Positions 3,647 through 55,364 of a DNA stretch of 64,000 bases are shown piece by piece. The notes under the pieces are model-generated. The model had not been told where the DNA came from. It was given only the letters and a program-made list of their open reading frames with translations, and made no database searches. The stretch's first letter is position 1. Each line of letters begins with the position of its first letter. A program made the translations under genes and the position numbers. Source of the stretch: Verpa conica (lineage: Eukaryota; Ascomycota; Pezizomycetes; Pezizales; Morchellaceae); contig JAUFSD010000025.1 of NCBI GenBank assembly GCA_033030425.1, positions 1,116,001 to 1,180,000 of the forward strand, read 5' to 3'.

Positions 3647-6600
3647 CTAGAGCACGGGATCCCAGGTCTCAAGGAATCCCGGATGGGCCGTACTTCTTCG
3701 CGGTTTCCAGGCATCTTGCACCATTTCCGCCGACAGATACGGCGTGGCGTAGGTAAGCGGCTCGTTACCAAAGTTAGCCCGGATATGGGCCCCAGGCCCT
3801 AATGTAACCATAGGAACAAGCTTCCCCTTGATATCGCCAATAGCTTTCCCTGTTTATGTTTTAGAAGGTTACGCTGGGACATGAAATGGAGGATCTACTA
3901 GCTTACCGATAATTTCCCCATTCAACGTGAAAAAGGCAATATTCTCTGTGCCATTGAAATGGCAACCCACTATGTCATGAGCTCCATACTTTTTGGCAGT
4001 ATAGAAGTCTTCACCGTACACTAGCAGTCCTTTAGTACAGCACCCCCAGTTCTTATCACTATAAACAGTATATGGTGGTGGCATCTCTGGATCCCTCTCT
4101 TCAAACATAAATCTATGCCCTTTACGTTTTGGCTCCCATAGTGAGTCGCGGTAAAACACGGCGTCTCCAAATCCGATAGAGATGTAGGAATCCGGGTTGG
4201 TGCTATCAATTGATATGGGTTAGAAAAGGTGTATAGATAAGGAATTCAAGTAGATAATCACCATTCTGCTAGGACCTTAACTTCGAATGAGTAGTTTTTA
4301 CTTAGTTTTAGAGGGAGGATGGGGTCTGCAGCTTCGATCGTGAGTCGTGCTTCGGTAGTAGCTACTCTAGTCAGTATTGCCTTGAACAAGATACCATGTA
4401 GGAGTACTTACGGTTTTTGACTTCTAGCCCATCAGCACTGACTTCTAATCCTGGGCGATCAAAACTCGTTTCCCAAGATGTCGGTCCAACCATCCCAGCC
4501 AATTTCAAAGACTCAGAAACCCCCTCTATCGCTATAAGCGTCTCCACCGCTTTGGTCTTTTCATACTCAGAAGCATATAACAGGGGAGACCACCCTTTAG
4601 CATCTTGATAACAAGGATCGGCACCTATGCTGATAAGGTGCTCCATGATAGAAGTATGCCCTTGTACAGCTGCAAAGCTTAAGGCAACTCCCAAATCATT
4701 TTTTGGGACCTCTTCTTTGTAGCTAAGCAATAGCTCGAGAGTTCCTTCATTCCCTCCCACATAGGCCGCCTCCCGCAATAACACACCGAAGTGTTCGTCC
4801 TTTTTACACTCCTCATTTGCCCTTTTGTTCCGCATAATCATTCTTACAAACCTATTATGTCTGCCCTTAATCACTCCTAGCATGACGTTAAAAAGGAGCT
4901 TCCGTTCGATCATCATATCCACACTCCAATCTGTGTCCCAGTACCTCCGGAATATTTTATCCAGCCCTCTCGAGATAGCAAGATAGAGTACTATATAGAA
5001 AATATCCTCATGGTCTTCTGTTACATTAACGGGAGAAATCAGGTCCTTGTAATCATCACACTCGAGGAATACATCTGCGATGTCTTCATTGCGAAATACA
5101 AGGGAGGTAACGAAAACCTGGTCATAGCGCCCCCCGACATAACCAATGGCAGGTCCCTCTGCACCCTTCTTGAGAAGCACCTTTGCGACTTCTGTCAGAC
5201 CGCGAATGATAGCCTCTTCCAGCAGTTTTTGTCTGTTAACATCAGCTCCTTTTGTTATCAGGTGGTACATCATGTCGTAATGTTTGTTACTCATGGCAAA
5301 AGCCAACGGAGTCCCGGCAAATGGTCCCGAACACATTTCATTGATGTCCTCACCGCGTCTGACGATTTCGTCCACTGCTTGGTAGTTGTTTGCCCATATA
5401 GCGATCTGCAGTGGGTTTATAATTTCAAAAGTCCTTATTTCGTAAAATACGTAGCTTAGGCTCTTCGTAACCTTACAATAGATCTGGAACCAAGAGCGGA
5501 GATTCCCAGAGTTACGGTCCAAGAGGAAGAACCTTTGAGAAAGATCATCTAGCACTTTATCGTTACCGAACTGGTAGTCCATAAAGTGTTCCCGCCAAAA
5601 TTCTGAGGCATAAGGCAGAAGAGGGTACTCTTCGAGTCGGTTTTTGAGATCCTCTTCATTCGTGCAAATTCCACAACTGAAATCGTCGAATAGGATATAG
5701 GTGAAACATATTTTGGTTATCTCTGCATTGGCGGTCTCGCGTTGAATTTGATAATCGGCAGCTGGGCTCCGGGATATTTTGACCGATACGAGGTACTCCT
5801 TGACGGTGAAGTGGGCAAGACCTAATGTCATGTTCCGCTGGTCTAGCCTCACTAATCCTCCGCAAATTTGCGGAATGTCCTCAGGTTCGTTGAGTTTTGC
5901 TTCCCGGTCCAAGGATGTGTTGTCAAGTTCAACAGCTATAGCTTCTGTGATCTCGTTTAAGTTCATTGGTCGATGGGAGAAGAGAAGCCATTGGAATACA
6001 CGTATCGCCAGTACCTTGTCTCTTTCATCTATGTTGCAGAGAATTCGTTCATAAGACTGTTCTAGTGTCGGTGGAAGTGACTTTAACGCAGCCCTGATAG
6101 CCTTGTCGGTCCGAAGCTTGGAAATCTCGTCTAAGCAACAACTTGCCCACCGGAACCTTGTGAAATATCTTAGTAGATAGTAATTGAAATATGATTTGGT
6201 TATGAAACTTACATCCCATTCGCTTCGTCTACCAGAGTAGTTACAATACTCAACTTCGTGCTAGGCTTCAGCCTATTGAGCCTTGCCTGTCGGTCCATCT
6301 CCGCCGTAACATATCTCCTAATATCGCCAGACACATCTTCATCCTTAATCATCAACTCAGGAAGACCTGAGAACTCTTCCCTGATATCAGGCTCATCCCG
6401 ACCTATAACTAGAAGGTTAAGATTCCCTTGCCCAACGAGTTTCGTGAGTCGCTGACACAGGCGGTCTCGTTTCTCAACCCTACATTCGTCAACAGCATCG
6501 ATAATAGCAACAACCTTTGAAAATCCCTTTAGAATGGAGTGTAGGCAACTCTCAAGATGGGCCGCGTTAGGTGGTTTTTCGCCTTCGTCGAATTTATTCC

Positions 6601-7825
6601 GGTATAGTTTATCGAGCTCTGCTGGTATCTCTGATTTCTCCCGGAGAAGTTGAGCAATAAGCGATCCTAGGAGACTGTCTATTGTTTGCTTTGAGCTGTC
6701 CTTGAAATCGCAGTAGAAATATAGAACTACCGGGTTAGAATTAGGTTGCATATTTGCCGAAAGTTCTGATATAGTGTGGTCGATTATGATTGACCTTTTT
6801 TACATATTTAGCTCCGCTCTAAGTTTTTTTTTTTATTTATTAAAAAAGGGTTATTTTAGAGGTTATAAACGTACGATAGGACGGTTTTCCCAGCACCAGC
6901 TAAATATTAGACCGAAAGAGTTAGCACAAATCTTATTTCACCCAACTCTCGTCGAATATTAGATAATAGGGAAGACACATACGTTTACCATGAATCCAAA
7001 GGAACGAGGAATCTGCCGAAACCCAGTCCTTATATATTTTCCCTTCGGTGAACCACTTCCCTGATCCATCTTGTCGAATTTCGCGAGCAGCAATGTGGTT
7101 GGTTTCAGGGTCTGCTGAAGAGAGCCATCTTACAATTTGCCTGAATCTTACGCCTGGGATTGATCAATCATACAGTTCAGGAGGTCATCTAGGGATAACT
7201 TACTCTTCTTCTCTTTTTCTTTTTTGGCTGTCTTGTTTATCTCATGATTTTTAAGTTCTTCAATGCCATCATATGTAGCGCGTCTCAGTGTTCTATATTA
7301 ATGAGAAACCAGAAATAATCAGAAATCAGAAATAATCTAGATATTTTTATACTGAAAACAAGTTTTCGATTAACACGAATAAGGGGGGGACTAGTTCACT
7401 TACGTATCGAATGAAGAAATAGCAAGAGAGAATGTACTCTTATATCTCTCGATCCTACTAAATAACTCTTTTGTATCGCTCTCATTCAGGGGCCACGTGA
7501 TACGCTTAAAAACCCTCCGCATTTTATTCCCCGAGTTCTGGTTCTCTAAGGATTCATAAGCACTTTTAAGACACTTTGCACAGGCGTCCAAAGCACCACC
7601 GAAAGGATCTACAGTCAACATTGGCCCGCTACCAGTCGTGTTTGGAGCATAAACAATACTGAGGGCGGTGAGGACTCCAGTCAGTGCCCGCACCTCCGCC
7701 ATGAGGTCTTGTAGCTCTCGTGGGAAATCTTTGACTGATACGCCATATGAATGAGTTACTGTCATCAGCTTCACGGCAATAGTAAGAAGAGCCCCGATAC
7801 TGGCCGATATAGTCAACGGATCCAT
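3647..7825 (-). CDS. NLR-like receptor: PigL_N-type N-terminus, NACHT, ankyrin repeats, SPRY
   Basis: Nine exons on the minus strand: 7825-7404, 7292-7204, 7153-6983, 6899-6875, 6794-6213, 6156-4412, 4364-4262, 4202-3907 and 3849-3647. They join in frame to about 1211 residues. The order is: a helical N-terminus beginning MDPLTISASIGALLTIAVKL, typical of fungal STAND proteins; the WLSSADPETNH and WIHGKPGAGKT blocks that precede and form the NACHT Walker A loop; a Walker B-like stretch VVAIIDAVDEC; ankyrin-like repeats (TPLAFAMSNKHYDMMYHLI; SFAAVQGHTSIMEHLISIGA); and a C-terminal SPRY/B30.2 domain (SYISIGFGDAVFY, IAFFTLNGEIIG, HIRANFGNEPLTY). Fungal NLRs of this type are thought to sense non-self or damage and trigger a response, often cell death. 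The frame is open throughout, so it looks functional. The Walker A loop sits on a 25-nt exon. Ligand and output are unknown. Confidence 0.85.
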
Positions 7826-32368: not shown

Positions 32369-34030
32369 TCATATAACAAGCGCTATCTTCTCCAGTGGCT
32401 CGACAACCTCTTCGCGAAATTTCCTCATCAATACTGTCTCTTCTTTGTCGTCATACTTGACATCGAAGTCTCCCAAGAGGCATTTCTTCACTACACACTC
32501 AAAAGTTCTCCCCATTTTGACAGCTAGTCGTTTCTCGGCATATCTAAGGAGCCGTTTCTTAATTTTCTCAGGCTCCCAGTCCGCAGTAATGTTGGCACCA
32601 GCCTGCTCAAGCGTCATTACAGACTGACCAATACCAAGCTCTAACAAGATGACACCTAGACTGTAGATATCATGAGACTTTGAAAATGTAAGTCGTGGGG
32701 TTCCTTGGCGGTCTGGATGCCGGTAGATATTCCGATTAATATCGTCGTCTGAAACAGCGTCTGTCATTGATTCACTTGGGCGGGTGTATTCGAAACCTGT
32801 GATTGTCGGTTCGTCGTATAGACTTTCGTGTGTTCCGTTCTCGTCTGTGACTGTTCGGGGGAAAAATAGAACTAATTCACTGCGTAGACTTTTGTGAATC
32901 CAGCCAACAAGGTGTAGCTGGCTTAGGGCAATTGAAAGAGAGTGGGCTACCTTAAACGTTTCTGTTAGGTTCATGATAGGCTTGCGACGAAACGATTGCA
33001 TTAGGGATACAGGACGGGAGCCAGGAGGTGCCTCAGATGGTAGATCGAAAACAAAACTATATCGAGGGTTGGGTGTAGCATCTGGCTCATGATAGTAACC
33101 GCGGCATTTAAGCATGTGGAAGGTGTTTGGTTTCTCTAACGTTAACAGAGCAGCAAGTTGGCGTATTCGCTGTTCCATAGCTGGGGGTCCTTTTGTCTGG
33201 CTTTTCGGCTTTTCGTAAGATTTGTGTTCGAGTAGTACAGGCACTTCGTCTCCGCCGGGTAGACAAAATAGACCTGTTGTTAGATGTCCAACAATGCCGA
33301 GAAGTCGTACTGGTGTCGTTTTCAAATCCAGCGCCGGTGGAGCGTTCTGGTCAGCAAAGGTTTCTGAGAACGTGAGCTTGCGTAGCTGGGCAGAGTTTGC
33401 CAGTCCGAGTTTCCAGGCGTCTTGGTCCTTATCGAGGCGCTCAAAAATACCACCTGTATCTAGTTTCTGGTGCGTCGAAGGTTGGATTTGGAGTTCGAGC
33501 AAAGAGAGCTCTAGGTTTGCCTTGATTCTATTATTCCAGTCCACGACCTCCTGTAGTATCTTCTCGGCCTTTCTCTTATCCCATCCAACCCAGGATACCT
33601 TCTGTAGAAGATTTATGCTGCTTTGTGTCTTTTCTTCGATTCCAGCATGTGTGAATTCTCCGGCTAGGGTAGCGGTCGAAGTCTGGGATGGATGAAGCAA
33701 GTCCATAGGAAGTGATCCAGTGATTTGATACCGGATCTGAATAGGGATATACTGCCAGATCTCTTGCCTTAGCTGGCGTAGCATTTCAAGGATATTGTGT
33801 CTGATATCATCACGGAAGTTATTGAATATGCACTCGTTCCTCGGTCCAAACGGCTTATCGAAGAGGAGTTTCTGAAACGATTGAAGACGATTCTGCTCGT
33901 CATCCATCCGAATCCGAAGTTTTTGTGCATCCTTGCCAAACTCTCGAGATTCTTCGAGCTTGGTCCCAATGTAGTCGAGTAGCTTTAGTAGTTGGTCTAA
34001 GACTGCGAAGGATAAACCGGCAATATCCAT
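32369..34030 (-). CDS. HeLo (prion-inhibition/propagation) domain fused to pseudokinase
   Basis: One uninterrupted exon of 553 residues. The N-terminal ~220 residues follow the HeLo pattern of Podospora HET-s: MDIAGLSFAVLDQLLKLLDY, then EFGKDAQKLRIRMDDEQNRL, then an EEKTQSSINLLQKVSW segment and a helix DWNNRIKANLELSLLELQ. HeLo is a membrane-targeting helical bundle that kills cells when activated. The C-terminal ~300 residues are kinase-like (LSIALSQLHLVGWIHKSLRS; SHDIYSLGVILLELG). However, the catalytic HRD is replaced by HKS, and the DFG position reads GFE, so phosphotransfer is unlikely. Helical bundle plus pseudokinase is the architecture of animal MLKL. The gene is head to head with a kinase-ankyrin gene, 472 bp apart. 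A cell-death effector role is inferred from the domain family. Confidence 0.85.
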   Translation of the reverse strand: MDIAGLSFAVLDQLLKLLDYIGTKLEESREFGKDAQKLRIRMDDEQNRLQSFQKLLFDKPFGPRNECIFNNFRDDIRHNILEMLRQLRQEIWQYIPIQIRYQITGSLPMDLLHPSQTSTATLAGEFTHAGIEEKTQSSINLLQKVSWVGWDKRKAEKILQEVVDWNNRIKANLELSLLELQIQPSTHQKLDTGGIFERLDKDQDAWKLGLANSAQLRKLTFSETFADQNAPPALDLKTTPVRLLGIVGHLTTGLFCLPGGDEVPVLLEHKSYEKPKSQTKGPPAMEQRIRQLAALLTLEKPNTFHMLKCRGYYHEPDATPNPRYSFVFDLPSEAPPGSRPVSLMQSFRRKPIMNLTETFKVAHSLSIALSQLHLVGWIHKSLRSELVLFFPRTVTDENGTHESLYDEPTITGFEYTRPSESMTDAVSDDDINRNIYRHPDRQGTPRLTFSKSHDIYSLGVILLELGIGQSVMTLEQAGANITADWEPEKIKKRLLRYAEKRLAVKMGRTFECVVKKCLLGDFDVKYDDKEETVLMRKFREEVVEPLEKIALVI

Positions 34031-34502
34031 GACTTTTAACTAGGGATTATGGAGAAAAGGGCTTTGTGTTGGTGAAAGGTCCTGAATAATCAGGTTATTG
34101 TTATATGATAGGAATTATCCAGGCGGCCAACATAACCCCGCATGCGCAGTGAGCACTGGGCAAGGCTCGAACTTTAACCCTAGCCCTCAAATCGTTAGAT
34201 GTACTCAACGACGTATTTCGTGTATGTGCCTGACTGTTTTCCTTGGGAATGTAGTAGGGGTATAGGCTTTATATAAGCCATTCTAGCTCGGCTCGCGCGG
34301 TGAAGGTATATAGAGTTGAACTTAAGATAGGTCAGGCTAGAATTGATACATATTAAACGTTTCTTGTAAAAGATACCTGTTGAGTCCGGATGTAGATTTA
34401 CCCATGGGGGTAGTATTTTCCAGAATGTGCTGTGTTGTGTTACTTAACAGATCTAGAACTCAAGGAGTCCAATTAAACACACACCGAGCTACCTACTCTA
34501 CG
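34031..34502. promoter_or_regulatory. Shared bidirectional promoter region of the HeLo-pseudokinase / kinase-ankyrin pair
   Basis: These 472 bp separate the two divergent start codons. A near-palindromic TATA-like element (ggctttatataagcc) lies at 34265-34279, roughly in the middle, and could serve either direction. I see no other motif. The bidirectional role is inferred from spacing and orientation. Confidence 0.5.
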
Positions 34503-37500
34503 ATGGATTCTGACGACGACGACTCCGATATCGGCAGTCTAGCCTCAAACTTGGGGGCTACACAGTTTACACCGTTCACCCCCAACTTAACCCTAAGAGA
34601 TTCAAAATCACAAACGACCCTTTCGCTGCTATTGAGTATAATCTCTACAGTTAAAAGCCTTGGAATACCATACGATAGGGTTGATAACGATACATCTGTA
34701 AAGATTGGTGAAGGCGCTACTTATTGTGTCGAGAAAGCCTCTACAATAGCCGTAAATACTCCATCATCAGTTGCGATAAAAAGAACAAAATTCACTATTT
34801 CAAAGGCTGCGACTGAGTCCTACACAGATGACCCTTCCCTCCGAAGGCGCATAAGATCCGTTCTTCTTGAGCTTCAAGTTCTATCGCATCCACCCCTCAA
34901 GGGTCATCCTAATTTTGTCCACCTATTGGGCTACACCTGGGAGGAAACTGCAACAGGATATTCTCCAGCAATTATCGTGGATCTAGCAGAGTTCGGTAGC
35001 CTGGATGGATTTGCAACAAGTGGGCTCTCTTGGACTGATAAACGAATTCTATGCGATGATATAGCAGTAGGACTTGATGCCCTTCATTCTTGTGGAATAG
35101 CGCACGGTGATATGAAGCCAGATAACATACTCGTTTTTAAACACCCTGAGCGGCGGTTTATCGCTAAAGTATCGGACTTTGAACACGCTCTTCTCGGCAC
35201 AGATGTATTGAAATATGGGGGAACTCCGATATATAACGCCCCCGAGGTACATCTGCAAGACCATCCTTCGCAACAACTGTCGATTCCCGTGAGGGATTTT
35301 CCTCTTTGTGATGCCTTTTCATTTGGACTCTCGGTTTTTGAAGTATTCTGTGATGGTAAACGATACTTTGAAAATGAGGATACGCGTCTTTTTAGAGATC
35401 TTCTAACGAGTTTCGACTACGGTAATCCTAATCTACCAATAAATGAAGTATGAAGAGTATCGAAAAATATTCTAAAGGGTAAACTGTAGATAAGGATCGA
35501 CTCTTGAGTCTTGCCTTGAAGTTTCTGGAGATTCAAGGATTTCATCCGGATATGTTGGGAATATGTAGAAGTATTTTCCAAGAAACCCTTTGTCCCCACC
35601 CAATAGACCGCTTGAGAGGGGGTTGGGGTCATATAAGAGAACTCATTGGAGCCGAGACTTTGTGAGAATTTCCAATCACATTTCCTTTTTCGGTAGGACT
35701 AATAGGGATAGTTTACTTCCCACATTGGGCTCGGGCTCGGGTGACCCTTTACCACTGCCGCTGAAGCACCTAGAGACAGAGTATTCGGTATGATAATCTC
35801 CCCCCCTCCCCTATAGCTAGGATCTATTTCTAAAGTTTCTCCAAAGATTCTCTCGTTATACAAAAGCATATCCCTAAATAGCGATAATGTTCGGTCAGAA
35901 ATAGTAGCAGAGCTACGGCATCACTCTAGGCAAAGCATGCTCCCGTCCGAAGAGCGTGCAAAAGCGGCATTCCAACTTAGCCTTTGTAGTGCAATAGGCT
36001 TTGGTCAACCGCTGAACATACAGGAGTCGGCGAACTGGCTTTCGCAAGCGGCATTACATGGGCATGAACTTTCCCTTATTATTGGTTCCCGGATAATGAA
36101 TGCAAATAATTTGCCTATACCCGATGTCTTTTTATACAGCCCTGTTTCACAGGAAACCCGGAGTTTAATTGGCCTTCTCGAAGCCCTGAGTCCAGAAGAC
36201 TATTACTCGAATGCTGTGCGAATTCTCTGGGGCGTGGAATTACGAAAACTCGCCATGAAGCCATTGGATGTGGAAGGAGCTATGGTATATGTCTCTCCAA
36301 GGGAAGGTTTTCTTGAATGGTTCAATACCCACCGCATATCCTACGATCCTACAGCGCTAGGTGAATTTATTGACCGTAACTTTCTCTTACACCATTCCGT
36401 AGAAATTGGTGATATTGAGATATCCAAGCTACTTATTGAAGATGGTGGGACTATAAACTTGGTTAATGGTGCGGGGCAGACGCCTCTTTATCTTGGTTGT
36501 AGAGGGGGTCATGCCGGTGTAGTGAAGATGCTTCTTGCTAAGGGAGCAGACCCCTCAGTATTCGACAAGAAAGGGATTACCCCACTTCATTGGATTGTCC
36601 TCTTCCCTACGACAGAAATAGACGAGATTGCCAAGCTTCTTGTCTCGCACGGGGCAAATCCCAACTCGGCGGGGACAAGTGACTTTGGGGTTTATTTTGA
36701 TAAACTTGGCCTTATTCTATGTGGCTCACCACTTAAATGGGCATGTCTTTGTCAAAATCGCTATGCTATGGAAGTTCTCTTATCATTGTGGTTTGACCCA
36801 GACCTTGAAGCCCTATCGGGTCTGATTTTCGACGCCTTAACTATTCTCAGCGCAAATATGGTGGAAACATTTATCTCAACTAGTAATATTTTGACAGTCC
36901 TCCCCGAGGAAGACCGAGTAGGACTCTATTCAATGATAGGGAGAACACCGGTCACAAACTTTCAAAGATGGATCATTCATGGCGAAGGCTATCAACAGGC
37001 ATACATGTCATGCGTTGATCTACTTCTACGGCACGGGATTCCAGTGGGCGGTTCTCTTCTGGGTGCCGCACCGACACTTAACTTGAACCTGGTTGGAGCA
37101 TTGCTCACTCGAGGGGCAAACCCCTCTGTAAGAGACTCGAAAACTGGGCACACGCCGCTACACAGAGTTATGATGTACTGTATCGATCAATTTCGACTTC
37201 CTAATGTTCTTGGGGTAGTAGAACTACTACTCAAAAGTGGTGCGACACTAGAGGAAGGGGATCCAGGTGATAGTGGCCGGCGGCGGACTCCAAACTTACT
37301 GATGGCCGCATGCGCAAACTCGTTTGCAGCAGCGTGTCCTGTAGAATTAATTAGGCTTTTTCTCTCCTACGGAGCCGACAAAATAATTAATTCTCGTGTC
37401 CACACATCTACGCCACTTCATCAGTGCCATGAGGACCCGCGTGTAACAAAACTGCTGCTAGAGTTTGGTGCAGACCCTAACCTCGAAACGCTAAATCACG

Positions 37501-38141
37501 AAAGTTTAAGTAGAAATCTGGGAAATTATATGGAACCTAGGAAGTGTTGCTTGACCGCTGCTGGAGAAGCATTATTGGAAGAGATGTGGGAAGTCCTGGA
37601 GATACTGCTTGATTATGGAACCACTTTGACGGTGGGCTTAACTGGTGGCCATCAACAAACACTTCTCCATCTAGCTGTCATAAGCTACTACAATTCAATC
37701 TGGTCATCTGGCTACAATCCTAGGGTCCTAGAGAGAACCGCCAGGTTTTTCGAGAAGCTTCTTGATCACCCAGTGATTCAAGGCGCAGAATTAATCAACC
37801 TCCCCGATTGGACAAATTTCACACCTCTGAAGTATGCTATTTGGTTAGCTATACCACGTTGCATAGAGGCCCTTCTGGATAGGGGGGCTCAGATTGACAG
37901 AACATCACCAGAAGTTACCCCACGTATTGTTGCCGATGAATTCTATCGTAACCCTCCATATTTTGTGTATGACGACAATACTAGTGACATTGAGTCCAGT
38001 CTCCGTCAGCGGCAACTATACAGGCAGTCAAAATCGATATACCGTATAGAGCTGAAAAAAGTTATATCAGTCCTCGACACTCATGCCAACAAAACCCTTG
38101 GGCTGGTCTCAGAACAGGCAGTAAGCGACCCTAGCAATTAG
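34503..38141 (+). CDS. Protein kinase with Sel1-like segment and C-terminal ankyrin repeats
   Basis: Four exons: 34503-35447, 35495-35661, 35697-35787 and 35847-38141, about 1165 residues. After an acidic start (MDSDDDDSDIGS) comes a kinase domain: glycine loop KIGEGATYCVEKA, beta-3 Lys in VAIKRTKF, catalytic loop HGDMKPDNIL, metal-binding motif SDFEHAL (DFE instead of DFG) and activation-segment end GTPIYNAPEV. The domain ends at RLRGGWGHIRELIGAET. A Sel1-like region follows (FQLSLCSAIGFGQPLNIQES). The last ~600 residues are ankyrin repeats, such as GQTPLYLGCRGGHAGVVKML and GHTPLHRVMM. The core Lys, Asp and Asn are present, so it may be active. The layout matches RIPK4/ANKK1 in order only, not in demonstrated ancestry. 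It probably senses something through the repeats and acts on a partner; the divergent neighbour is the obvious candidate. Confidence 0.85.
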
Positions 38142-48871: not shown

Positions 48872-51800
48872 ATGTCTGATCACCGGGACAGGCGTGACCG
48901 TTCCGCAGAACGTCGCGCTGATCGCTTTCAGTCTTCCCGCAACTCCAGTGCCCGTGACCGGTCTCGTTCACCTACCCACACAACCAACCGCGATGCTAGA
49001 GGCCGTGGTTACGAGACCTCGGCCACAGATAACGAGTACTCGAGACATGAATCTGGAACTAGTGCTCGTCAGGAAACCGAGCGTGATGGGCAACGAAGGA
49101 ATAGTGTTTATGATCGGCGTGGTGGGAATGCAGATAACTCTTAGTTTGTACTCCTTTCAGTCTTTCGTGCTCTATTCTCAGCTTTCCCTTGTCCGTCTTT
49201 TTTGCGCTCTTCCTCGGCCTTCCATTTACTGCTGCTTAACCGTTACTACTACTGTTTTTGTTGTCTTACTCTTTTCTCTGCACTCCCCTCTGTCGCCCGC
49301 ATCCGTTTTTGTGTACCCTGCTGATTCAATACCAAAACTCCTCTCGCAGTCTAAGTTCTTCTCGGGAACCGTCAGCCGAGACTCGCCCTTCTTCCTCTTA
49401 TGGGAGGAGTTCTGCTCCTACCGGAAGCGGAACAAACGACTATCCTCCGGATAATCGTGGAGGGGGTAGGGGTGGTGATACTACTTCTACTGGTTACGGA
49501 GAACAGCAAAAGAGTGGAAACAGAGGAGGTTCTTGGGGCGGGTTCGGGCGTAATGATACTGCCCGGGGAAGTGGTCGTGATGGCTTTTCAGGAAGTGGCA
49601 GGCGCGGTGGTGGTGGTGAGAACTACAACAGTACGAGAATCTCACATTGAATGTGTTGACATAACTTTACTGATTTGGTTACAGATACAGGAGGATATAG
49701 CAGGGGTGGTGGCGGAGGCGATCGTGGCTACGGTGGTCGTGGTGGAGGTCGCGGTGGTTATGGTGGTAGTCATGCAGCTGCGATCATTGAAGGCCCTCCC
49801 CTGCCAGAGTTTGTCCCAATTCCATCGAACGGAGAAGAAATCCAAGTAGTAAGTGTAACACTCACAATGAAAAAACTACCAAAGGCTAACAGTAACTTTT
49901 TTAGCCTACACCGCAGCGACAAGGTTGTACTGGCCAACCTATCAGAGTGTTTGCGAATCATTTTGAGTTCCAGTCTCTACCACGTATTGAACTATACCAG
50001 TATGATGTGAGTATAACCCTAACAAAGAATTGTGATTCGTACATACTTACAAAGAAATGAAAACTAGATTCGGGTTACTGCTGATGCAAATAGAACCGAT
50101 GGTCAACTTGAGGAGTCAGAGATAAAACAATGCGCGCCGGCGATGGTCAACAAGGTCATGCAAGATCCCAGTGTCAAAAATATGCTCGGTGTAGGGTTCA
50201 TATTTGATGGTGTCTCAATTGGCTGGTCAACTCAGAAGCTCCCGTTTCCAGCCGATCCATACAGGCATCGCCTTGAACTTCCTGGGTCTCGGCCTGGTAG
50301 AACCTTTGGCTGCAACATTGATATTCGCCAGAGTGGGAAATTCAGTACGGACCCATTCGTCCAATGGCTCCGTAACGAGAACTGCCGAGTAACTTCACTT
50401 AATGATCCTGCCAATCTCGAACGCGAGGATCATATCCAGCTATGTTTGAAGTTTCTAAACGCTCTTCTCCGTGCGGATCCGTCAAAGCGGTTTGTTACCG
50501 GCCAAGGAAACAAATCAACAACATATTTTAATCGCACACCATCTACAACACTCGCTCTTAAGTCTACTGGTAATGTTCTCGAAGCCTGGCGTGGCTTTTA
50601 TCAAACTGCGATCGTACGTTTTGGAAAACTCACGGTAAATGTCGATACTACTACAAATGCCTTTATCAGACCTGGAATCAACTTTCTTGAGGCAATTGCT
50701 GGCTTTGCGGGGATATCTACAGACAAGGTAGAGGAGATATTTATGCAAAATCGAGACAACCTAATGCCAATCATGAAAAAGCTGGTCGGTATTGGGTTTA
50801 AGGTTAGGCATTTGAAGGAAGGCCCTAAGAGTGATATTGTCAGGCGTGTCATGAAAATGACTGCTCGTGGTGCCTCGGAGGAGAAATTTGAGAGGAGAAG
50901 ATTTCACAAAGACCCTACTACAGGTGAGGACACTATGACAATGGAGACTGTGACAATTGCAAAATATTACAGCCAGCAGTATAACATCAATATCCGATTC
51001 CCTATGCTCCCGATGGCTGAGTCTAGGAAGGGAGAAAAATATCCCTTGGAGCTGTGTTTTGTTAGCGATTCTGAGCGGTGGAAGGAGACGCTTCAAGGAG
51101 CCGAGACTGCAGATTTCATCAAGTTTGCGACTGGACCGGCCTTTGTTCGCAAAGGCCAGATCGAAGAAAACTTGAAGAAGCTTGCTTGGCACAATCAGGG
51201 TGAGCTCAAAGAATTTGGAGTATCGATTAAACCACAGTTCATGTTATTGGAAGCTAGAGTTTTGCCAGCACCTATCCCAATCTACAAGCAAGGCACAGAT
51301 AATATAGCTCCATCAGGTGGGCGTTGGAATCTGAGATCGAAGGTTTTCCATACCGTAAGATCCCTTCATATCCTAATACTTACCCCTAGTTTGAAGTTGA
51401 AACTTGTATTCACAGAACTTGGTAACTTAGGCACAAAAAATCACTGGATGGGGCCTCATGTACTTTCCTGGTGGACATATAAGACTAAACGAAGAGCGTC
51501 TCCGCGAATTCGCCAAAAACTGCAACCGTTCATTTTCCACATATGGTATGGATGTTAAACGACAAGACCCCCCCGTGTCGATCGCCAATCAACAAGGTGA
51601 CCTGAGACGCAGTATTAAGGAAATGCTCATGAAAATTACGGCAGCAAATGGCTTTCATCCAAATCTCATGATATTTCTTCTTTCGTCGGCATCAGCAGAG
51701 CCGTACGCGACTATCAAGAAAATTTGCGATGTAGAGTTTGGCATCGCATCTCAGTGTATGATCGTCGAAAAGGCTTTCAGTGCCAAGGGACAACAACAAT

Positions 51801-52719
51801 ATCTCGGAAACATCTCGATGAAGGTTAACATTAAGCTCGGCGGGATAAACGCGTGGATTAAAGATCCAATTCTCAGTCGTGGACCAACGATGGTGATGGG
51901 CTGTGATGCCTCTTACCCAAATCCTTCGCAACTTCGCATGAGTCCGCCACTACCAACATTCACTGCAATTGCCGCCAACTATGACCAGTACTGCGCTAGA
52001 TATAGTGCAGTAACTGGTACGCAAGCACCGGGGAGCGAAGAAGTCAACCACTTTGCCGGGATGGCAAACGAGCTTATTAGGCGCTTTGGCGAGCATAATA
52101 AATGCAAACCAGAAACTATTTTGTATTTCCGTGATGGTCTTTCTGAGGGGGCGGTTGGGTCGGTGTTGAAGGATGAGCTTACCGCGCTGAAGAGTATAAC
52201 CAATGCAAGAATTACGATCATCCTTTGCGTAAAGCGCCATCACACCCGTATCTTTCCAGGACCTGGGGACAAAGGAGATCGCTTTGGGAACGTGGCGCCT
52301 GGAACCGTCGTAGAAAACGGAAATGGAAAAGATATTTTTCTTGTTTCCCATACTGGTCTTCAGGGAACTGTTCGTCCTACTCATTATATAGCGCTTTATG
52401 ATGAGAACAATCTCACCCCTGATCAATTCCAGGGACTTTGCAACAATCTTTGCTACGGTTACGGCAGGGCTACTCTTTCTGTGAGCATAGGTAAGCCATT
52501 TCCTCTCTCCATTTTCGAAGAGGTCGCTCACTATGAGTTCTATACAGTTCCACCAGTTTACTATGCACGCCTGGCATGTGAACGTGCACGTTTACATATG
52601 CAGCCAAATGGGCAATTACCTCAGGTTCAGAAGGCTCTGAGGCTTTCTATGGTGAATCACTCTTTATTTTTTTCCCTAATACTCATACTAACAAATCATT
52701 TGTATAGTGGTGGCAATAA
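48872..52719 (+). CDS. AGO: Argonaute (PAZ-MID-PIWI), RG-rich N-terminus
   Basis: Exons from 49350 on are clear: 49350-49630, 49685-49848, 49905-50006, 50068-51354, 51431-52651 and 52708-52719. The first exon starts at 48872 (MSDHRDRRDRSAERRADRF). Its donor is unresolved; GA|GTAC at 49035/49036 is the in-phase option. After Arg/Gly repeats (GGGGGDRGYGGRGGGRGG) come the Argonaute N domain (PIRVFANHFEF), a PAZ-region linker and PAZ, MID (KITGWGLMYFPGG) and PIWI. Catalytic candidates are Asp in VMGCDASYP, Glu in GSEEVNHF, Asp in LYFRDGLSEG and His in RPTHYIALYDE. The extreme C-terminus is LSMWWQ, the usual short hydrophobic end. It binds small RNAs and silences matching transcripts or transposons (QDE-2-type). 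The residues suggest slicer activity, which is not proven. It appears complete. Confidence 0.92.
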
Positions 52720-55364
52720 TCCCTCTCCTTCTGAATACTATACTCTGGTCTCCCATTACTATTATATCCAGGTTTCTTTGGTACCTATTTCAAATTTTTG
52801 TTGTTTGGTTGTAATTCATTATATTTTGTAGAGTGGATTTTTCTCCCTTTTCACGAGTATATGAGTGATTATCATTTCTTTGTGCCGATGTCTTTCTTTT
52901 ATACATCCCTTTTGGCCACGCTTTACGAACCTTGCTTCGGTTTTCAAGTGGTGTTGCGATGCTGATCACCCGTCAAAGTTTCACTTATAAAGAGTAAAGA
53001 TCATTAACGGAGTGTGGGAGTGGGCTGGGTGTTGCGGTAAATACCTCCACTTGCTTAAGTAGAGGGCCAAGAAATTATTGTTGTCTATTTATTCGCGCGT
53101 GACAGGTCTGAAGCACGAGGATGTTTATGTTAAAGACTAGTAGACTGTGGTCCGTCTAACCCGAGTGATATCATATGACCAGGGCATTACGAGACTCCCA
53201 TTTGGGGTGTTCCCCAGAAACTATCGTAAAAGGTTTCATCTGTTTGCTCTCAGCCGGCTTTTATTTTGGTAGTTCTTCTTTTTCTTTAATAGATATGACT
53301 CTAGTAAGGAATCGATGAGGTGGGATGAGGTGATCCATCAAATCGATTCTTCTGAATCTTTTCCAGTGGAACAATAGAGAGTCCTACCTATTGCAGCGGA
53401 GACTCAGATGGAAAGGTCTAGATTGTATTTTATTGGTCACCCGCCTTTGCTCCATATCCTTCTGTTGGATTCGGACCAGAACGGCAGCCCCCGCCGGTAT
53501 GTTACCTTTACGACGGTGATGCGGGCTCAGTAACCGGAGGTAAAGAACTATGATTTCTTTTTGGGCTATGATCTCCACTCGGAATACCGGTCAGCGTTCT
53601 TGTGTAATCCAACACTTAACATCTTTTAACCCCGCTACATTAGTATGATGTCATTCGGGAAGATGAAGCGCTTAGAGGTTACTTGAAATTCGGCTGGATC
53701 TGGGCATTTAGACACATTCCGAGCAAAAGACCTTACTATTCACCTTCAAATGTGATGTGTTTGTGTCTTCATAAGACTTTTAATTGTAGGATTTATTAAG
53801 GGTACATTTAGACTAAAATCTATGTCACCTTGACCTCCTGTTATCTAAGACGTTTCTTTATAAAAATCCCAAAGGCTGTGTTCTTCAAGAATGGTATCGG
53901 TGAATTTCTAAGTATTATTCTCACTGGGAAGCTCGTTCCACTTACATTGCTATTTAGCCGGAAAAGTGTGTCTTGTCCTGCTGATGTTAATAATTGTATA
54001 GATACTTAATAACGGGAGTAAGGCATATTAGTCACATGTATAATGCTGCTATCACTTTATATTAGCACTCACAACTCTGTTCATATAGTTCTAATGATTT
54101 TCCCTGCACAGACGTACCACGAGCGCATGCATCAGGCAACGTGCCTCTAGAACGAAGGCTGCATAACCTAACTCATACCTAGACCTTGAGGACGTAGCCC
54201 TGGCTTTTATAAAGATCAGCCGTTATAGATTCCTTAAATGTGAACTTGTTAGATCTCATATTAAGATTTTTGCCCAGCATTGGACTTGGAGTGTCCATCC
54301 TCCAGGTAATAAGTATCGGTCGAGAATACCTAGAAAAAGGCTGTTCAAATGGATCTGAAGCCATTGATTCCGAGCGGTTTCGCGGATTCACGGATTCCAC
54401 AGATGTATTATTTCTCCCATGTTACTATTCAAACCCCTAAACGTATTGTGCCAGCCAAGTATTTCAACCCAATCAATCCAGGGTCAGGGGGGGGTTGTTC
54501 TCTAACACAACCCATGGTCAAGCATCCCGGAAACCGTCGTATGGGGTTGTCCCAGACCCACAGGGAGTTTAGCCCGCAGATCCGACAACCCCTGCACTGC
54601 ATAGAAATGCCACACTCAGGAACCGTGTAACCATTTATCATAAGTTGCGGGGAAATAATGTAGCCAATCACAACGAACTCAGATATAGCGGCCCGCGAGC
54701 CGATCTTGATCAGTTACAGACAAAGTAGAAAGTCCGAGATGGCCAGTAGGATAACTGTCCTAGCAAATTTAAGTTGTATGGTGAGTCCAAGCGTCGGATT
54801 TGAGATATATAACCTTGATAATCTGTATAGTCTGTAATAGAGCTGTATGCTAACCAGGAATGATTTGTATTTTCCTTGTAGATTCTTAATTCCTCGGAGT
54901 ATAGGTATTAACTATTCGGTCCTTTTGCCCGGAAGTGTGTGTATTTGGAGCTTAGAAGGTTCTCACTTAATTTCCCCTTTCGGTGGTCTCTCACATTTAT
55001 AACCTTAAACGGCCACCCCGTCCCTTCTACTGGGACGTATTTCATGTTTTACTGGCCGCGTTTCCGGATTTAATCCTTGATGCCAGGAAAACTTTCCTTT
55101 GGTCCTTAACAAACATTCGGCCTTAATTTATTTCATGGATATCACGGAACTCGTAAATCCGCAGCTCCTGGGTACCAAAAGTCATGGATTGCACATGTTG
55201 TTTGTAATTTCGTGGTTTTGATGAAGGTTAATAGTAACTGGGGTTATGAAAGGTATATAAGAGACGGTCTCTGCAAACAACTTCTCCCTTCTTTATCCAG
55301 CAACCGCAGCTCTAAGCTCATTCCACTCTCTAAAAAACGTATATAACTCTTGCAACCAGCAAAT
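52720..55364. other. Intergenic region of about 2.6 kb
   Basis: No supportable gene. Frames at 53384-53578 and 54349-54671 show no motif or splice logic. The right end is the AA9 promoter. Confidence 0.45.
55254..55261 (+). promoter_or_regulatory. TATA-like box of the AA9 gene
   Basis: The sequence tatataag lies about 104 bp before the ATG at 55365, followed by a CT-rich leader (cttctcccttc) typical of strongly expressed secreted fungal enzymes. Confidence 0.5.

Follow-up and report, generated by a model that had tools for sequence, protein, structure and literature searches.

Where the switch of a fungal HeLo killer is known, it is an NLR acting through amyloid seeding, as far as the available accounts go. 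In nwd2/het-S and pnt1/hellp, adjacent genes combine a HeLo-type executioner with a repeat-bearing sensor, and three such NLR–HeLo/HELL systems are described for Podospora anserina in the accessible parts of the sources (PMC7885112, PMC12881547), with NLRs as the partners (PMC7885112). In the MLKL system, RIPK3 phosphorylates the regulatory loop of a pseudokinase (PMC12881547). Plant MLKLs and wheat Pm13 join a HeLo/4HB and a kinase-like domain in one protein, in the same order as the protein described here, but they differ in that the accessible text gives them no adjacent kinase–ankyrin partner and the Pm13 kinase is apparently active (PMC10951266). Fungal HELL proteins with a kinase or pseudokinase domain are mentioned in a 2025 review, which also calls for a broader study of HeLo/4HB proteins; they are probably of the same kind as our candidate executioner, and the accessible portion of the review provides no partner, mechanism or catalytic survey for them (PMC12881547).

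Here, we analysed the window, that is, the whole 64,000-nucleotide stretch of Verpa conica DNA, which contains a gene pair resembling each of these systems in part. Its genes are adjacent, as in the NLR–HeLo pairs; unlike there, the putative sensor is a kinase whose main frames gave no nucleotide-binding domain in Pfam scans, and the putative executioner ends in a pseudokinase. The executioner shares with MLKL a helical bundle, linker helices, a pseudokinase, a lost catalytic Asp, GFE in place of DFG and serines in the loop that comes next. The switch proposed here, a separate active kinase, would match RIPK3–MLKL (RIPK3 role, PMC12881547), whereas the ankyrins of the partner, its unsupported kinship with the RIPKs and the adjacency of the two genes set the locus apart. 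The first-pass annotation was aware of no described system that pairs genes in exactly this way. In a limited search of the accessible parts of six papers (PMC12881547, PMC10197012, PMC12258605, PMC4835503, PMC7885112, PMC10951266), no kinase–ankyrin partner was found, and the literature searched yielded no mention of DUF7580; the HeLo–pseudokinase half, however, is already in print (PMC12881547).

Two divergent genes with opposite catalytic states

The two genes are transcribed away from each other, with 472 bp between their start ends, and their features are as follows.

32369..34030, minus strand: HeLo–pseudokinase gene P0001, one exon, 553 aa
33494..34030, minus strand: HeLo helical bundle, residues 1-179 (PF14479 at 33.3 bits, HET-s 2wvo profile match, AF2 helices)
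33344..33457, minus strand: linker helices from bundle to kinase fold, residues 192-229 (AF2 secondary structure)
32372..33310, minus strand: pseudokinase domain, DUF7580-like, residues 241-553 (Pfam, AF2 model, family profile)
32888..32896, minus strand: HKS at the HRD position, residues 379-381, catalytic Asp absent (alignments)
32789..32797, minus strand: GFE at the DFG position, residues 412-414 (alignments)
32762..32764, minus strand: Thr423 of the activation loop, candidate phospho-acceptor (conserved Ser/Thr position)
34031..34502, no strand: divergent promoter region, 472 bp (gap between the two genes)
34503..38141, plus strand: kinase–ankyrin gene, four exons
34503..35447, plus strand: exon 1, the bulk of the kinase domain (PF00069 at 64.8 bits)
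35103..35126, plus strand: catalytic loop HGDMKPDN with Asp203 and Asn208 (both invariant in 8/8 paralogs)
35175..35183, plus strand: DFE at the DFG position, metal-binding Asp225 kept (invariant in 8/8)
35495..35661, plus strand: exon 2, end of the kinase C-lobe, by reading only (frame and splice sites)
35706..35787, plus strand: exon 3, alternative starts 35697 or 35712 (frame and splice sites)
35817..38141, plus strand: exon 4, ending at the stop; ankyrin repeats preceded by a weak Sel1-like stretch (Ank and Ank_2 at 104.2 bits)

The gene models of both strands bear out the divergent two-gene locus that had been proposed from the sequence. The description of one product as a HeLo bundle joined to a kinase fold without HRD and DFG also held: PF14479 scored above its curated cut-off of 23.2 bits at the N-terminus, HKS and GFE stand at the two motif positions, and the AF2 model together with the profile places bundle, linker and pseudokinase in one chain. 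For the other product, described as a kinase followed by Sel1-like and ankyrin repeats, the catalytic Asp and Asn and the ankyrins were confirmed, but the Sel1-like part of exon 4 scored below the Pfam cut-off, at 16.2 bits.

The same division of catalytic residues recurs in the seven paralogous pairs described below. All seven other kinase frames exceeded the Pkinase cut-off (59.5–100.6 bits), ankyrin repeats followed the kinase in 8/8 (in the seven others as a downstream frame on the same strand, by Pfam), and the helix-C Glu, the catalytic Asp and Asn and the DFG Asp were invariant in the alignment of all eight kinases. The beta-3 Lys can be made out by eye, spread over more than one aligned column. 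Judged from these kept residues, the partner kinases look active. Pfam scans of the eight partners' main kinase/ankyrin frames listed neither NACHT, NB-ARC or another nucleotide-binding domain nor a RHIM or death domain. A WGFES-like kinase start was matched as a pattern only in L065 and P0058 and once inside an unrelated protein; a variant was seen by eye in L064, upstream of the chosen ATG.

On the pseudokinase side, HRD is replaced by HKS, HKN or HKA, and DFG by GFE, GFT or GFN, in every one of the eight paralogs aligned. The wider alignment A3 has 46 rows, 44 of them with letters at the motifs (L068 and L069, each represented by its first open frame, make up the other two). None of the 44 keeps the HRD Asp (HKS in 25, HKG in 13, others in 6), so the loss is family-wide and not that of a broken copy. 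The DFG position reads GFE in 27, GFD in 11, DFE in 3 and otherwise in 3; the three rows that retain the first Asp of DFG count against the module reading. DUF7580 was found in all seven other partners at E 0.001 or better, and HeLo exceeded its cut-off in five of the eight including the window gene (4/7 others); by Pfam scan it was below the cut-off in L064 and L065 and unreported in L066.

Eight linked pairs in one genome

Scanning the window's own assembly (45.8 Mb, 25 contigs) with P0001 returned 16 rows at 15 pseudokinase loci, and kinase exon 1 returned 13 rows, the best eight at 62.8 bits or more and the ninth at 32.8. Each of these best eight kinase loci adjoins one of the 15 pseudokinase loci (8/8). 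The pairs lie on C25 (the window), C23 (two pairs), C21, C16, C9, C13 and C19, and the same eight loci top the lists when three other family kinases serve as queries. Seven pairs are divergent, with gaps of 280, 472, 726, 729, 832, 1,224 and 3,081 bp between the chosen ATGs, and the seven gaps hold no common 7-9-mer beyond what shuffles give; in the C21 pair (L066) the genes stand in tandem, the kinase–ankyrin gene preceding its partner. Under uniform independent placement, adjacency in 8/8 would have a chance of about 1.6e-19, a figure that is descriptive only, since the pairs are interrelated. The kinase and HeLo–pseudokinase pair is thus a recurrent unit in this genome.

Relatives of the HeLo–pseudokinase also occur outside such pairs. 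Seven of the 15 pseudokinase loci have no adjoining family kinase, which counts against the module reading. The genome holds 16 HeLo matches, five in pairs and 11 not beside a family kinase, and 11 DUF7580 matches, six of them at loci outside the 15 and, by coordinates, none of the six near the eight kinases. Querying with the L067 pseudokinase recovered 14 of the 15 loci (C4 was missed) and short fragments at C8:38817 and C19:120822. One unlinked pseudokinase has a weak kinase match (C19:350080) some 2 kb upstream; another has, about 5 kb upstream, a kinase match and after it an ankyrin match (C19:127248–128963). The unlinked pseudokinases may have lost their partner, or it may be present but undetected.

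These counts bear on a reading in which the linkage merely reflects duplication of an ancestral pair, the HeLo–pseudokinase taking other inputs (for example, from NLRs) and the kinase–ankyrin gene being a neighbour with no direct role. The unlinked pseudokinase, HeLo and DUF7580 loci suit it, as do the many more distant relatives of both genes in the genome, where kinase-plus-ankyrin loci with other kinases are common. Against it, linkage holds in all eight family kinases despite identities between pairs of mostly 20–33% (exceptions: L064/L065 at 36–42% and L068/L069 at 48–50%), and one pair is tandem yet linked. We therefore consider duplication alone quite an unlikely explanation.

The two members of the pairs have diverged together. 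Distances among the kinases (first 520 residues of the eight models) correlated with those among the pseudokinases (Mantel r = 0.81), a value reached in 27 of 40,320 relabelings, and the mostly-ankyrin part from residue 401 on gave r = 0.87 (22 of 40,320). Trees built separately from the full kinase–ankyrin models and from the pseudokinases share the groups (L068, L069), at 100/100, and ((L064, L065), L067), at 95/96 and 99/98. The window kinase–ankyrin gene falls apart from its paralogs, with sequences from Circinaria calcarea (96/96) and Sphaerosporella brunnea (100/99); provided that genes passed vertically and the window-gene group does not contain the root, the pair families predate these splits. 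By these comparisons, the pairs are old and have diverged as units. Complicating this account, the eight linked pseudokinases do not form a single clade, as the tandem L066 groups with five unlinked ones in the 15-locus tree (96/99).

Tight divergent linkage and co-divergence would suit the co-inheritance of a killer and its antidote equally well. The kinase–ankyrin protein would then restrain the HeLo–pseudokinase, and loss, blockage or mismatch of the kinase would bring death, as in allorecognition or a selfish pair. Known fungal HeLo clusters, in the accounts available, have activating partners instead, and we regard such a guardian role as unlikely.

Nearest structures and a candidate loop switch

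Searched against solved structures, the A3 profile matched HET-s 2wvo best (E 6.7e-17, residues 2–207), followed by MLKL (4m68, E 3.8e-9; full-length 4btf, E 1e-8) and IRAK4. Similarly, a profile of the eight paralogs returned the same order (HET-s 6.6e-11, MLKL 4.6e-9), and P0001 as a single sequence returned seven weak kinase rows with neither HET-s nor MLKL among them. As aligned in this search, the fungal profile has a degenerate catalytic loop and GFE in common with MLKL. In a control in which the stretches around HKS and GFE were masked in nine of the sequences, MLKL (1.2e-3) fell slightly behind IRAK4 (5e-4) and a plant kinase (4e-4). The case for MLKL as the true nearest kinase is weakened accordingly: since its lead disappears with the degenerate motifs masked, a special nearness of the pseudokinase to MLKL is only suggested. 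A fold search with the whole model gave other kinases, tied, with no MLKL among the 50 rows listed. The predicted executioner is filed as a HeLo protein with an MLKL-like layout, not as MLKL.

The bundle was also modelled alone (pLDDT 79, pTM 0.72), and fold searches with it returned generic helical bundles, HET-s and MLKL being absent from the 50 rows listed in each. This outcome, limited to the rows listed, would fit a non-lytic bundle in a scaffold or receptor pseudokinase of ordinary signalling, and so would the three of eight partners in which HeLo is weak or unreported. The match of the family profile to the solved HET-s HeLo domain speaks against such a role, which we consider very improbable.

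RIPK4 and ANKK1 consist of a kinase followed by ankyrin repeats, the same domain order as in the partner. The likeness to RIPKs drawn in the first-pass annotation found no support in sequence kinship: against solved structures, the partner kinase profile ranked LRRK2 and IRE1 first, and the best 60 of 2,760 matches, which also include plant receptor-like and other kinases, contain no RIPK. The predicted partner is not filed as a RIPK. What stands of the proposed MLKL/RIPK-type module is the MLKL-like layout beside an active-looking ankyrin kinase, now in eight pairs.

Our script located the GFE-type motif in 45 rows, and 44 of them carry a Ser/Thr 11–13 residues past its Gly (the exception is P0052); the background, for three arbitrary residues of the kinase-like half, is 32%. 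The script missed P0018, probably through its position filter; the P0018 loop has a Ser at the same distance. In the printed alignment with mouse MLKL, MLKL serines fall in the corresponding stretch, and we take these to be the RIPK3 phosphorylation sites. The loop Ser/Thr is found too in relatives whose neighbours were unseen, which counts against a module-specific reading. The position is a possible phospho-switch, although the rows share ancestry and its conservation may also have a structural cause.

Relatives in other species and a proposed mechanism

Elsewhere, P0001 has 55 relatives with E no higher than 0.001, and both HeLo and DUF7580 are listed for 23 of these; their names place them in Helotiales, Pezizales, Dothideomycetes, Chaetothyriales and other groups. 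By this measure, the executioner family is widespread. The full-length kinase–ankyrin search gave two clear relatives among 12 rows (P0057 and P0058, from Circinaria calcarea and Sphaerosporella brunnea), and the kinase exon gave nine clear and one weak. None of these 12 kinase-side matches (10 exon, 2 full-length; ten other rows, ankyrin-only or distant kinases, were excluded) shared a contig with any of the 55 pseudokinase matches, in a weak test that covered top candidates on short contigs compared by number of bases. P0061 and P0041 agreed at 7,800 bases each and were rejected as a pair, as P0061 looks by sequence like a bacterial ankyrin protein. The best Sphaerosporella brunnea matches are on separate contigs (99,096 vs 238,958 bases); where a genome holds several pairs, best matches need not be partners. 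As far as its reach goes, this negative result counts against conserved linkage. The expectation of linkage across species thus found eight co-diverging pairs inside one genome but no positive case elsewhere, and our linkage claim is limited to this one Verpa conica genome.

Directly established are the architectures, the opposite states of the catalytic residues, the eightfold linkage, the co-divergence and the conserved loop Ser/Thr. We consider it reasonably probable that the two genes form a module for regulated cell death, a killer pair switched by a kinase. The HeLo–pseudokinase would be the executioner, its N-terminal bundle restrained by the linker helices and the dead kinase fold. Its partner would be an active kinase that uses its ankyrin repeats to sense or bind a trigger of conjectural nature. 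We infer an interaction in which each kinase would act on the pseudokinase of its own pair, with phosphorylation of the conserved Ser/Thr just after GFE as the likeliest means; the bundle, once released, would attack membranes, with self-killing as the presumed outcome. The pairs, at least eight, are probably a repertoire of separate sensor–killer lines, comparable to NLR–HeLo pairs but with a kinase as the switch. More tentatively, and as a proposal that could well prove wrong, this may be a fungal, NLR-independent, kinase-switched system resembling necroptosis, in which multi-copy kinase–ankyrin sensors each phosphorylate their own adjacent HeLo–pseudokinase killer.

The eightfold pairing within one genome is new, and the single-locus guess is better founded than one locus could show. 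A live kinase repeatedly paired with a HeLo–pseudokinase would be the fungal version, hitherto missing, of the kinase-to-MLKL switch. With eight pairs in a single genome, partner specificity and an ancestral versus a convergent origin of the switch can be tested directly. If the proposal is true, the kinase/pseudokinase logic of RIPK3–MLKL would exist in fungi as genome-encoded, paired immune or allorecognition loci, either pre-dating animals or reinvented.

A clade of unlinked pseudokinases and kinase matches near two of them

Five pseudokinases of the Verpa conica genome that were counted as unlinked, with no kinase of the eight-member partner family beside them (L030, L032, L033, L034 and L036), form one clade with a support of 99/98. 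In all five, HKN takes the place of the HRD motif. A single contig holds three of the five genes, two of which are separated by 18 kb. Kinase matches were also observed upstream of two members, and these may represent diverged partners of the pseudokinases:

C19:127248-128963, kinase match followed by an ankyrin match, ~5 kb upstream of L033
C19:350080-350418, kinase match, ~2 kb upstream of L032

Kinase-ankyrin loci beyond the partner family

At many loci of this genome outside the eight-member family, ankyrin matches closely follow kinase matches, and the kinase match is commonly split near profile position 127. These loci perhaps constitute another expanded kinase-ankyrin group. Two examples are:

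C12:11132-12698, kinase and ankyrin matches
C25:933064-935097, kinase and ankyrin matches

Additional genes in the window

Two further genes were each recovered as two overlapping frames, the first located ~26 kb from the HeLo-pseudokinase and kinase-ankyrin pair:

4371-6799, minus strand, NLR-like gene with a Nephrocystin-3-type N-terminal domain (74.7 bits), then a winged-helix and ankyrin frame
50068-52831, plus strand, Argonaute gene with ArgoL1, PAZ and Piwi domains

An N-terminal motif of partner kinases

Some partner kinases bear a WGFES-like motif at their extreme N-terminus, followed by similar residues. This motif, which could serve in signalling, occurs as follows:

L065 (paralog pair locus), kinase N-terminus
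L064 (paralog pair locus), upstream of the chosen ATG
P0058 (full-length kinase-ankyrin relative from another species), residues 14-18
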